DNA of 64,000 bases from Chloroflexota bacterium (lineage in GTDB: Bacteria > Chloroflexota > Anaerolineae > Anaerolineales > UBA11579): positions 299,252 through 363,251 of the forward strand of contig JACPVG010000036.1 of assembly GCA_016191875.1 (NCBI GenBank), written 5' to 3'. A model generated the notes under the pieces. The model searched no databases. It had not been told where the DNA came from and saw only the letters and a list, made by a program, of their open reading frames with translations. Shown here piece by piece: positions 48,082 through 51,819 of the stretch; within the stretch, counting starts at the first letter, position 1, and the number at the start of each line of letters is the position of its first letter. The translations under genes were made by a program, and so were the position numbers.

Positions 48082-48549
48082 TTACGGCACCCAGTCGGAG
48101 AGCACGCGGATGTCGATCTCCGGGTTGGCCGGGTCGTTGGTTTTCAACAGAACCCGGAACTCATGAAATCCGTCCATGCCTTCGTGCATCATGAACTCGG
48201 TGGAGGTGATAAAGGTGCTTTCGCCGGGCTGGAGGACCATCGAACCGATGGTCAGTGAAGGCGGTCAACAGCCCTCCAGAACTTCCACATACGGCTGCTC
48301 CTTGAAGCGCAGCGTGCCGTCTCCGGTGTTGGTCACCACCACCTGGAAGGTCAGTTGGGTGTTGAATTTCACCGTCCCGAAGTCAAACACCTGGCGGTTG
48401 ACCGAGATGGCCGGCGTGCCGCCGCCCGTACCCTGCCCGCTCAGGCCGATGTAGAAGGCCACTGCCAGCAGCACTGCGCCGCCGATCAGCGCCCAGTGAA
48501 TCGGCGTGAGTTTCGTACGTTTGCGTGACCGGGTTTTGTGTTGTCCCAT
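48082..48549 (-). CDS. DUF1573-like membrane-anchored selenoprotein candidate (in-frame UGA)
   Basis: The ORF track ends this gene at the TGA at 48265-48267 after 94 residues. The same frame continues for 60 sense codons to a TAA at 48082-48084, giving 155 residues with residue 95 encoded by UGA. The region across the UGA is coherent: VEVLEGC-U-PPSLTIGS, then VLQPGEST and STEFMMHEGMDGFHEFRV, LLKTNDPANPE, the beta-sandwich pattern of DUF1573-like proteins. I expect homologues to have Cys at residue 95, giving a Cys-Cys pair. A SECIS-like hairpin follows. One N-terminal helix (LIGGAVLLAVAFYIGL) anchors the domain outside the membrane. It is last in a five-gene copper/heme/iron-sulfur operon, so a redox role at Cys-Sec is likely. 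Decoding requires selABCD elsewhere in the genome. Confidence 0.78.
48235..48253 (-). promoter_or_regulatory. bacterial SECIS-like hairpin after the in-frame UGA
   Basis: On the mRNA strand the UGA (48265-48267) is followed by 11 nt and then GACCATC-GGTTC-GATGGTC: a perfect 7-bp stem with a 5-nt loop that starts GG. The loop begins 18 nt after the UGA. This fits published bacterial SECIS rules: short apical loop, G in the first two loop positions, and 16-37 nt from the UGA. Confidence 0.72.
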
Positions 48550-48564
48550 TGTCCAATCTCCTTT

Positions 48565-49536
48565 CTATGGATAGTCCATCTGCAAGGTGTACAGGTATGC
48601 CACCACGTGCCAGAGCTGCTCATCGGTGTAGATCGCGCCCCACATCGGCATGCCGGTACCCATGCCGCCGCGTAGCAGCTTGCCCTGCAGCAGGGCGGGG
48701 CTGGCCCCCAGCAGGATGGCCGGGTCCTGCCAATCCGGTGGCGATTGCATCAGCATGTCGGGCGCGCCCGCCAACCCCTGCATGGCGGCTTGTCCGGCAG
48801 AGGCCAGGTCATCAGCGTACAGGCCGTCGCCAGCGCCCTGCGGGCCGTGGCAGGCGGCGCAGTCCTGCCGGAAGATGGTCTCGCCCTCGGCCAGAGCGGC
48901 CGGGCTGGTCTGGCGCGCCCACAGGGCCGCCACCAGGTCCCAGCGCTGCGCGTCGGTGAGGTTCTCCAGGCCGGGTTGATTCCCCAGGCTGCTCCACAAC
49001 TGGGCCGGGGATGCGGCTGCGTACTGGTCGAACGAGAACTCAAGCGCCACAACCGGCGCCGCCAGGGCGTTGGGGCGCTCAGCTGGCGTAGTCTCTGCCG
49101 GATGGGGGGCATCGATGTCAATGCCCAGTTGGGCGTAGAGCGGCGGCGTGGGCGCGCCTGCTTGCACGTCGCTGCCGCGCACTTCGATGACGCCGCGCAT
49201 GCGCCAGTGATTCAGCCCGCACCAGACCGTGCAGTAGTAGGTGTATATGCCGGGCTGGTCGAAGGTCAGGGTGACTTCGGTTACTTTGCCCGGTTCGACC
49301 AGCACGGCCTCGAAATCCGTCCGGCCGACGCCGAAACCGTGCAGCACGTCGTCGGAGGTCAGGCGCACGGTGAGCGGCTGGCCGGCCTCGGCGCGTAGAA
49401 CGTCTGGCGCCCAACCGCCTTGCTCGGCCAGCCGGGCGTGCAGGAGGGGCGGGCGCTGCCGGGCGGCCAGCGGGAAGCCGACGGCGGCCGCGGCCAGCCC
49501 CAGCACCAGCAGCCGGGCGAGCGTTTCGGCTCTCAT
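48565..49536 (-). CDS. periplasmic CuA cupredoxin fused to cytochrome c
   Basis: A 323-residue exported protein. The track ORF is too long; the ATG at 49536 overlaps the polyferredoxin stop by 4 nt. An N-terminal hydrophobic segment is followed by a cupredoxin domain with a full CuA set: His66 (VLHGFGV), then YYCTVWCGLNHWRM with Cys102, Cys106, His110 and Met113. The C-terminal domain has one heme site CAACH (226-230) and a later Met-rich segment (MGTGMPMWG) for the axial ligand. The pattern is that of cytochrome c oxidase subunit II of the caa3 type, but the two-helix membrane hairpin is absent. It probably carries electrons between periplasmic partners; no oxidase subunit I lies in the window. 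Confidence 0.9.
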   Translation of the reverse strand: MRAETLARLLVLGLAAAAVGFPLAARQRPPLLHARLAEQGGWAPDVLRAEAGQPLTVRLTSDDVLHGFGVGRTDFEAVLVEPGKVTEVTLTFDQPGIYTYYCTVWCGLNHWRMRGVIEVRGSDVQAGAPTPPLYAQLGIDIDAPHPAETTPAERPNALAAPVVALEFSFDQYAAASPAQLWSSLGNQPGLENLTDAQRWDLVAALWARQTSPAALAEGETIFRQDCAACHGPQGAGDGLYADDLASAGQAAMQGLAGAPDMLMQSPPDWQDPAILLGASPALLQGKLLRGGMGTGMPMWGAIYTDEQLWHVVAYLYTLQMDYP

Positions 49537-50882
49537 AGCAGCAATCCCATCATCGCCAGGGTAAGACCGAAGGCGTAGCCGGTTACCGGCAGCGCATGGA
49601 ACCCGCCCTGGGCCGCCGCCCGGCGGGCGACGCGCGCCGCCCAGAACGCGCCCACCACCAGCGCGCCGATTTGCAGCGGCAGCCCCCAGCTGGTGAGGAG
49701 CGGCTGCCAGGCCAGACCCGCCGCGCCGAACAGGTCCCAGCCCCAGCCGAGTGGGTCGGAGAACACGTTGAGGACGTAGACGGCGTTGGCGAACACGAAC
49801 GACAGGCTGAAGGCGGCCCAGAACATCAGGCCGAGCGGGACCAGGGCGGAGGCCGCCAGGGCGAAGTCGCTGCGCCGGGCGGTGCGGCGACGCGGCGCAG
49901 CGAAGACCTGCCCGAGACGCACCGCCAGCCAGAACAGGCCCGGCAACAGGCCGAAGCAGATGAACAGGAAAGCGGCCGCGTAGGCCAGCCAGGCCGGGCT
50001 GCCCACCGCCAGGGCGGCGGCCTTCAGGCCGCCCCACGGGCCTAGCAGGATGGCGGCATAAGCCAGGGCCGCGCCCAGCATCAGGAAGGCCTTGAAGGCT
50101 TCGTCCAGGCGGGCGGCCGGCTTTTCCAGGTCGCCGCCAAAGGGCCGCAGGTTGAGGGCGATGTTGTCTTTGGGGCAGGCGCGCAGGCATTCCAGGCACA
50201 GGCCGCAGGTGGAATTGCGCGCCAGCCCGGCCGGGAAGACGCCCCACGGGCAGCCGTAGCCGCTCTCCGAGCCGTTGTAGCAGGCTTTGCTGGCGCAGGC
50301 GGCGCACACGGCGGTATCCGCCACGCGCAGTTCCAGCGGGGCGGCCTGAGCGTACAGGCCGATGAAGCCGCCCACCGGGCAGACGGCGCGGCAGAAGGCG
50401 CGCCGTTCATAGACCGCGCTCAACCCAATGGCGGCCGCGAGCATGCCCGCCAGCGCCAGGGCGGTGACGCGCGGGTTGGTGAGGATGACGGCCGAGAACA
50501 GCGCCATGAGCGTGAAGACGCCGTTCTGCAGCCAGATGTTGCGCAGGGCTTTGGGCAGCCGCCGGTTGAGGCCGCGCGGCGGCCGGCCGGAGGGGCCGAG
50601 CAGGGCGCCGCGCTGGAGCCAATCGCCCGCCAGCGGGATGGGGCAGACCGCGCACCAGCCGCGCCCGGCCAGCGGCACGGCCGCCAGGATGAGCAGCGCC
50701 CACCAGAGAATCCACACGGCGATGATGCCGAAATTGCGGCTGCCGACCGGGGTGCCCAGCAGCCCGGAGACGATGACAAAGAGGAACCCGGCCAGCAGCA
50801 GCGCGGCGGCAATGAACTGCGGCCAGCGGCTTTTCAGGGCGGCTTTGAGCCAGGGACTGCGGGTGAGCGCCAGGCGCTTCAT
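49533..50882 (-). CDS. NapH/CcoG-like membrane polyferredoxin
   Basis: A 449-residue membrane protein; I start at the ATG at 50882, which overlaps the cupredoxin stop by 4 nt. The N-terminal half has four helices with CxxxCP motifs facing the cytoplasm, WCAVCPIPLAGDW and FCRAVCPVGGF, as in the NapH/NosR/RdxA group. A bacterial-ferredoxin-like region then shows VCAACASKACYNG and STCGLCLECLRACPKDN, sites for two [4Fe-4S] clusters. The C-terminal third adds about five more helices. Such proteins move electrons across the membrane from quinol or ferredoxin. Here the likely partners are the copper and heme proteins of the same operon. Confidence 0.9.
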   Translation of the reverse strand: MKRLALTRSPWLKAALKSRWPQFIAAALLLAGFLFVIVSGLLGTPVGSRNFGIIAVWILWWALLILAAVPLAGRGWCAVCPIPLAGDWLQRGALLGPSGRPPRGLNRRLPKALRNIWLQNGVFTLMALFSAVILTNPRVTALALAGMLAAAIGLSAVYERRAFCRAVCPVGGFIGLYAQAAPLELRVADTAVCAACASKACYNGSESGYGCPWGVFPAGLARNSTCGLCLECLRACPKDNIALNLRPFGGDLEKPAARLDEAFKAFLMLGAALAYAAILLGPWGGLKAAALAVGSPAWLAYAAAFLFICFGLLPGLFWLAVRLGQVFAAPRRRTARRSDFALAASALVPLGLMFWAAFSLSFVFANAVYVLNVFSDPLGWGWDLFGAAGLAWQPLLTSWGLPLQIGALVVGAFWAARVARRAAAQGGFHALPVTGYAFGLTLAMMGLLL

Positions 50883-51334
50883 TCCGCCGCCTTCCGGAGC
50901 GTGAGCGGGGCGGCCAGCACGGCCAGCCCCGCCAGGGCCGCGGCGCGGGCCAGCGTCCAGTTCGGGCCGACCACCAGCCGCCCGAGCATGAAGGGGTGCA
51001 AGGTCCCGCAGGTGACGCTGCAACGCAGGCGGAACACGCCCGCCCGGCTGGCGATGAAGGTGAGCGCCGCCGGTTGGCCCGGCTGGGCCTCGGCCGAAAC
51101 GTCGTAGCCGTCCACGTACAGGCCGTGGGTAACGTCCGTGCTGTGCAGTTCGATGGTGATGGTGTCGCCGGGGTTGGCGCGCAGGCTGGCGGGCGTGAAA
51201 GCGTATTGCCCGGCCCCCACCCGGAAGAAGCGTTCCAGCGGCGCGGCCGCGGCCGGAGCGGGAATCAAAATGACCGCCAGCGCCACACTTGCCAGCGCCA
51301 GGGTCATCCAGAGGTCTTTCCTTCTGAGATTCAT
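50879..51334 (-). CDS. small exported cupredoxin with CuA-type motif
   Basis: A 151-residue protein with a signal peptide (ending about APAAAA), one cupredoxin domain and a C-terminal membrane helix (about 128-145). His70 (VTHGLYV) and RCSVTCGTLHPFM, with Cys105, Cys109, His113 and Met116, match the CuA pattern C-x3-C-x3-H-x2-M. It therefore carries the same binuclear copper motif as the cytochrome fusion two genes downstream, without the heme. It starts 20 bp after the PCYCGC gene and overlaps the polyferredoxin gene by 4 nt. It may deliver copper or pass electrons; both are possible. Confidence 0.87.
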   Translation of the reverse strand: MNLRRKDLWMTLALASVALAVILIPAPAAAAPLERFFRVGAGQYAFTPASLRANPGDTITIELHSTDVTHGLYVDGYDVSAEAQPGQPAALTFIASRAGVFRLRCSVTCGTLHPFMLGRLVVGPNWTLARAAALAGLAVLAAPLTLRKAAE

Positions 51335-51354: not shown

Positions 51355-51819
51355 TTATGGCAGGTTGGATGGCCCATAGCGGCCGTAGGTCTGGTCGATG
51401 AAGGCCTGCATGTCCGGCACGTCTTCGCCGTCGCGCATCATGCGCATCACGTCCTGGGTGATATCCACGCAGATCTGGCAGCCAAGGGCATGGCCGTCGA
51501 AGACCAGGTTGCCGGCTGCGTCCGCTCCGGAGACGTAGCAGGCGTAGTTGGACGTATGGCCGATGCTGCCGCAGCCGCAGTAGCAGGGAAACTGCTGCAT
51601 GAGGTCCGGGTTGGCGGCGGCGAAGCGGTAGGCGTCGCTCACGCGCGTCGGGGCGTCCTGCACGGCCTGGGGCAGATGTTCCATGCCCAGCAGCTCCAGG
51701 TCTGCGGCGCCGGAGGAACAGGCGGGCAGGCCGGAGATGAGCAGCAGGGCCAGGATGGAGAACAGGGCAAAGCGGCGGTGGCGTGTGGGCATGTTACGTC
51801 TCGAGGGCGTGAGAGTCAT
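51355..51819 (-). CDS. PCYCGC-motif lipoprotein
   Basis: A 154-residue lipoprotein (lipobox SGLPAC) with the family motif FPCYCGCGSIGHTSNYACY and a later CQICVD pair, followed by TQDVMRMMRDGEDVPDMQ. The PCYCGC family has no established function. The many Cys residues suggest metal or thiol chemistry outside the membrane. Two starts are possible: ATG at 51819, five bases after a TATAAT (leaderless), or ATG at 51792, which leaves a short leader but also lacks an SD. The gene leads the five-gene redox operon. Confidence 0.85.
   Translation of the reverse strand: MTLTPSRRNMPTRHRRFALFSILALLLISGLPACSSGAADLELLGMEHLPQAVQDAPTRVSDAYRFAAANPDLMQQFPCYCGCGSIGHTSNYACYVSGADAAGNLVFDGHALGCQICVDITQDVMRMMRDGEDVPDMQAFIDQTYGRYGPSNLP

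Follow-up and report, generated by a model that had tools for sequence, protein, structure and literature searches.

We describe a predicted selenoprotein gene on the minus strand of the window, that is, the whole stretch of 64,000 nucleotides that was analysed, and propose a role in copper handling for its product, hereafter referred to as the GCUPP protein. An in-frame UGA at codon 95 of this gene almost certainly specifies selenocysteine (Sec), which would be inserted by SelB and Sec-tRNA-Sec, positioned by a hairpin located 3' of the UGA. The product is predicted to be a secreted, membrane-anchored protein with an Ig/ASH-like, DUF1573-related beta-sandwich, in which a single soft-ligand site is probably built from the adjacent residues Cys94 and Sec95 together with Met121, Met125 and His129, all three of them invariant. 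As its most likely function we propose that of an extracytoplasmic Cu(I) carrier or thiol/selenol reductant, which would load or repair the CuA-like centres of the cupredoxin-cytochrome proteins encoded in its operon. With the copper role read broadly, we place the probability of this full account at roughly 0.6.

The gene starts with an ATG at position 48549, which is served by a good ribosome-binding site (AAAGGAG) and lies 15 nt beyond the stop codon of the upstream gene (Table 1). When TGA is read as Sec, the frame forms a single ORF with the UGA as its sole interruption, in the context ...YVEVLEGC-U-PPSLTIGSMVLQPGES... of the window protein translation. A preliminary description of this DNA had given the correct coordinates for the gene, leaving its strand (minus) unstated; the TGA that it had noted directly after a Cys, with 60 sense codons followed by TAA, was reproduced here (codon 95, LEGC-U-PPSL). 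The gene figures as a 94-aa ORF in the stop-to-stop ORF list of the window, and standard gene callers would truncate the protein at residue 94.

Table 1 Position of the GCUPP selenoprotein gene, its signals and the genes of its operon in the window
Feature	Position	Strand	Details
GCUPP selenoprotein gene	48082..48549	minus	155 aa, Sec = residue 95
TAA stop of the GCUPP selenoprotein gene	48082-48084	minus	
Second conserved motif MHEGMDGFH, residues 121-129	48163..48189	minus	alignment A1 and column counts
SECIS-like hairpin GACCATC-GGTTC-GATGGTC	48235..48253	minus	7 bp, loop GGTTC
In-frame UGA, codon 95	48265..48267	minus	directly 3' of the invariant Cys94 codon
Shine-Dalgarno-like AAAGGAG	48558..48564	minus	8 nt upstream of ATG; read from sequence
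CuA/COX2-like cupredoxin fused to cytochrome c	48565..49536	minus	Pfam COX2 28.8 bits, Cytochrom_C 50.6 bits
Membrane 4Fe-4S polyferredoxin	49533..50882	minus	Pfam Fer4_5 28.9 bits
COX2/cupredoxin-domain protein	50879..51334	minus	Pfam COX2 33.6 bits
PCYCGC (PF13798) protein, Cys form	51355..51819	minus	Pfam 92.6 bits

The window protein used as a single query gave no match against genome contigs, and an alignment of 11 family rows served as the query for a profile search of genome contigs. A search of plasmid proteins returned no match. The 92 members first extracted, together with loci from a search of the phylum and from a named genome collection, amounted to 156 distinct relatives, nearly all of which were from Chloroflexota; the named loci were mostly from Anaerolineae MAGs. 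Codon 95 was UGA in 142 of these relatives and Cys in 14, with no other residue at this position, and a quick tree of the 156 members indicated at least seven changes of state between UGA and Cys. Clear relatives were present in 69 of 396 sampled genomes of the class, nearly all of these genes containing exactly one in-frame TGA, and the first set was drawn from them. In this set the codon was UGA in 84 members and TGC or TGT in eight, always within the motif GC[U/C]P. The same gene, with 74% identity and the same UGA, was present in the genome of a congener.

Three copies from MAGs titled Actinomycetes or Acidimicrobiia (L219, L221 and L228) were of the UGA form and had the hairpin; these reflect either horizontal transfer or misbinned contigs. 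In genome G236, which consists of a single contig (C1), a near-identical second gene copy (L052) was located within 9 kb of the contig end and is broken by a shift of frame 3' of the UGA; its neighbourhood resembles that of the copy at 9.7 kb, and it may be an assembly duplication at the contig ends.

Bacterial SECIS elements place their loop approximately 16-37 nt past the UGA and have a G within the first two loop bases. The window hairpin agrees with this rule, its stem starting 11 nt and its GGTTC loop 18 nt past the UGA, and the perfect 7-bp stem reported in the preliminary description was confirmed. The local RNA fold, at -16.4 kcal/mol, was more stable than those of dinucleotide-shuffled sequences (z = -2.24). 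Single-sequence hairpin energies compared with synonymous recodings were moderately low (mean z -1.5), and the case for the hairpin therefore rests on conservation and covariation. All six core pairs were found in 80 of the 84 UGA members of the first set and five of six in the other four, with loops such as GGTTC, GGTCA(G), AGTTC and similar, against one to three of six pairs in the eight Cys members. In a second set, at least five of six pairs were retained in 99/99 UGA copies, while 7/9 Cys copies fell below that. Among 41 diverse sequences, both partners had changed in four of the stem pairs, and covariation scored 0.447, compared with a mean of 0.249 for shuffled sequences, none of 500 shuffles reaching 0.447; when the partner strand was shifted by 1-3 columns the score was at most 0.291. 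Because the stem is coding, residues 100 and 105 are coupled, occurring in Sec forms as the pairs V/T (47), T/V (23), I/I (5) and A/A (2); this pattern was absent from the Cys forms.

Two loci from MAGs titled Thermoflexus sp. and Anaerolinea sp. (L233 and L236) have a Cys codon, yet their stem remains pairable at 6/6 positions, and a third locus with a Cys codon (L223) has a decaying SECIS stem with 4/6 pairs. In all three, Cys appears to have replaced Sec recently, leaving the hairpin as a fossil, the direction of change being deduced from the sequences.

The source genome encodes tRNA-Sec (72.8 bits), SelB (315 bits) and SelA (529 bits), machinery whose presence the preliminary description had proposed as a check. 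In the window, an Rfam scan found no known RNAs and ARAGORN found no tRNA. Full-length SelB was found in 51 of the 63 Sec-form genomes, and tRNA-Sec scored over cut-off in 11 of the remaining 12; in the highly fragmented genome G151 neither SelB nor tRNA-Sec was found over cut-off, a gap possibly caused by fragmentation. One of the five Cys-only genomes, G349, had no match over cut-offs to SelB or tRNA-Sec. SelB was over cut-off in 314 of the 396 genomes of the class (79%), among which the Sec trait is common, and its presence in Sec-form genomes therefore supports Sec insertion but does not discriminate. Taken with the UGA/Cys column and the conserved hairpin, this machinery backs the earlier suggestion of a probable selenoprotein, and the support for Sec at residue 95 is the maximum that sequence alone allows. 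The three outcomes that the preliminary description had named as refuting its suggestion (missing Sec machinery, no UGA/Cys column, a misread TGA) were each contradicted by the data.

The protein has an N-terminal membrane anchor helix (residues 17-37) followed by an Ig/ASH-like beta-sandwich domain, modelled by AlphaFold2 with a pLDDT of 90.9. The window protein matched the Pfam HYDIN/VesB Ig model at 33.3 bits, above its cut-off, and the best matches among solved structures were OCRL1, HYDIN, VesC/VesB and P. gingivalis 2qsv. The match to these HYDIN/VesB/ASH Ig-like domains (PF22544) is at the level of the fold. Residues G58, N74, G76, G93, C94, U/C95, P96, G109, M121, M125 and H129 were invariant in the 79-member alignment A1, Cys forms included, while H122 was present in 79/90 members. 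Strands 87-92 and 99-101 flank the GCUPP loop, and strands 111-116 and 127-137 the MHxGM loop; in an up-and-down sandwich this strand order would bring both loops to one end. We propose M121, M125 and H129, with C94 and U95, as putative metal ligands. Two loci (L095 and L100, genomes G103 and G038) encode the GCUPP domain as a fusion with a region that is Met-rich, weakly PepSY-like and contains MMGG repeats, a protein type encoded as a separate neighbour near other members (L114 and L115).

The preliminary description had stated that DUF1573 was not among the listed selenoprotein families. This was wrong: OS_HP2 has been listed since 2008, with pfam07610 and the motif UxC (PMC2398784), and the inventories of 2022 and 2026 equate it with DUF1573 and give its motif as UGC (PMC9312934, PMC13188914). 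The GCUPP protein resembles OS_HP2 in being secreted, in having a related Ig-like domain of the DUF1573 type and in carrying Sec in the loop of DUF1573's CGC motif. At family level, PF07610 matched 77/79 members and NF041425 (OS_HP2) 68/79 members at E values up to 0.01, the best E value for the latter being 6.7e-12. The window protein itself scored below threshold with both models, reaching 20.7 bits with PF07610 (gathering threshold 26.1) and 18.9 bits with NF041425 (curated cut-off 100), and no OS_HP2 member over cut-off was found in 301 Chloroflexota genomes. The motifs also differ: OS_HP2 has U-G-C, whereas the GCUPP family has GC-U-P[P/S] with Sec after a conserved Cys, and all UGA members have GC-U-P. 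When the Sec column was compared with Cys-Gly-Cys relatives only, in a register ambiguous by one or two residues, Sec fell on the Gly of the CGC motif (ungapped) or in an insertion (hhalign), neither of which is the first Cys. The M-x3-M-x3-H set formed by M121, M125 and H129 is an additional difference from OS_HP2, and is invariant in the GCUPP family.

In the 2026 inventory, proteins that differ in Sec position or motif count as separate subfamilies (PMC13188914). No GC-U-P entry or DUF1573 'CU' entry was found in its table, and no model naming the GCUPP family was found in Pfam or NCBIfam. The family thus survives as a selenoprotein (sub)family unnamed in the inventories and family libraries consulted, because the window protein is below threshold for both PF07610 and OS_HP2 and its motif is different. 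From the earlier designation as a new, DUF1573-like selenoprotein we therefore retain the novelty, at the level of a (sub)family with its own motif, while the match to DUF1573 is sub-threshold. A distant relative (L161/L246, contig C277 of genome G432) with an in-frame TGA in SC-U-PQ and lacking the MHxGMxGxH motif is possibly a member of another Sec-containing DUF1573-like subfamily.

The GCUPP gene is the last of five genes of the same orientation whose ends overlap or almost meet, in the order (5' to 3') PCYCGC, COX2/cupredoxin, 4Fe-4S polyferredoxin, COX2-cupredoxin/cytochrome c fusion and selenoprotein, the fusion gene being directly upstream of the latter. The polyferredoxin, which by eye we take to be NapH-like, is encoded by a gene that overlaps its neighbours by ATGA. 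Genes for PCYCGC, the polyferredoxin and the cupredoxin-cytochrome are recurrent neighbours of the family, and at other loci so are genes whose products group with an HMA-domain protein and a copper-ATPase-like protein. PCYCGC and the family occurred together in 57 of the 396 genomes, 69 of which had the family and 90 PCYCGC (Fisher p = 2.6e-33, with related genomes counted as independent), and a PCYCGC gene was found at most 6 kb from 56 of 91 family genes.

The PCYCGC copy in the window is of the Cys form (HALGCQICVDIT). At four other loci (L082, L072, L068 and L053), the PCYCGC gene beside the family member has an in-frame TGA within HAFG/HALG-U-xICVDIT, and these loci appear to encode two adjacent selenoproteins. 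The motif HAFG-U-xICVDIT fits the UxxC of OS_HP4/CYCXC, a known selenoprotein assigned to PF13798 (PMC13188914). OS_HP4 is, like the GCUPP protein, secreted, has Sec in part of its members and shares the operon in many genomes, but it is unrelated to the GCUPP protein in sequence and Sec motif and is its neighbour.

The assignment to copper is based on the type of ligands and the gene neighbourhood, from which the GCUPP protein probably binds copper. Because a putative soft-ligand site made of Cys, Sec, two Met and one His is encoded in an operon of CuA-type proteins, a Cu(I) carrier or reductant for those centres is our leading proposal. The suggestion in the preliminary description that the Cys-Sec pair would bind metals or thiols well is plausible and gains context from this operon. 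PCuAC (DUF461) and Sco are copper chaperones of CuA sites; they are small, extracytoplasmic, anchored proteins with Met/His or Cys/His ligands and are encoded beside CuA-type proteins. The GCUPP protein is likewise small, anchored and encoded beside CuA-type genes. It differs in having no Pfam match to either, in using Cys-Sec and in its fold, which matches ASH/PapD-like domains and not cupredoxin-like or thioredoxin-like ones. We put forward only tentatively the more specific proposal that an unlisted family widespread in Anaerolineae handles copper for CuA-type centres by means of Cys-Sec and Met/His ligands.

The vicinal Cys-Sec and Cys-Cys pairs would also suit a thiol-redox protein rather than a metal carrier, passing through a Cys94-Sec95 selenenylsulfide cycle in a Sco-like or DsbC-like role, with disulfides in the cupredoxin or cytochrome partners of the operon as substrates. 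Redox enzymes make up the majority of selenoproteins whose function is known (PMC13188914), and genes for a TlpA-like thioredoxin and a DsbD-like protein are recurrent in the vicinity of a few members. We nevertheless consider this function less likely, as the invariant Met121, Met125 and His129 suit the binding of a soft metal better than a redox relay, and the protein has neither a thioredoxin fold nor a CxxC/UxxC motif. A Sec-containing soft-ligand site could, in addition, serve in the detoxification or sensing of other soft metals (mercury, silver, arsenic), and the listed Cys-Sec (CU) selenoproteins SaoL and HgcA are linked to mercury (PMC13188914). However, no mer or ars genes were recognised among the recurrent neighbours inspected, a group made up of cupredoxins, COX2-like domains and HMA-domain proteins, making such a role improbable.

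The remaining alternatives to Sec insertion and a copper role concern the UGA itself. UGA is a standard stop elsewhere in the source genome, and the codon could be a real stop that yields a 94-aa product, with the downstream frame as a relic. Comparison of the window gene with that of its congener past the UGA, however, gave a dN of ~0.09 and a dS of ~0.69, with similar values upstream of the UGA; the resulting dN/dS of ~0.1 agrees with other gene pairs, and the sequence past the UGA is under purifying selection. This selection, the Cys that 14 relatives encode in place of the UGA and the covarying, UGA-specific hairpin refute a true stop in the main, and leave it very little probability. Least probable of all, and without a supporting point that we could find, is a genome-wide reassignment of UGA (e.g. 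to Trp or Gly) or a sequencing error: TGA terminates 22 UGA-containing family members and five of the seven neighbouring minus-strand genes checked and is therefore not reassigned, Cys is the sole substitute in relatives, and the recurrence of the UGA in independent genomes, 142 relatives in number, disposes of the earlier doubt that resequencing might give TGC or TGT, so that both versions are refuted.

With these results, a selenoprotein (sub)family of wide distribution is added for a class of bacteria in which SelB occurs commonly, in 79% of the genomes sampled. The family is a clean example of a SECIS hairpin in a coding region forcing paired amino-acid changes (V100/T105 to T100/V105), and it points to a directly testable link between selenium and the maturation of copper enzymes. 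If the proposed function is correct, the GCUPP protein would be a selenium-dependent copper-site assembly protein, sometimes accompanied in its operon by a second selenoprotein, PCYCGC/OS_HP4.
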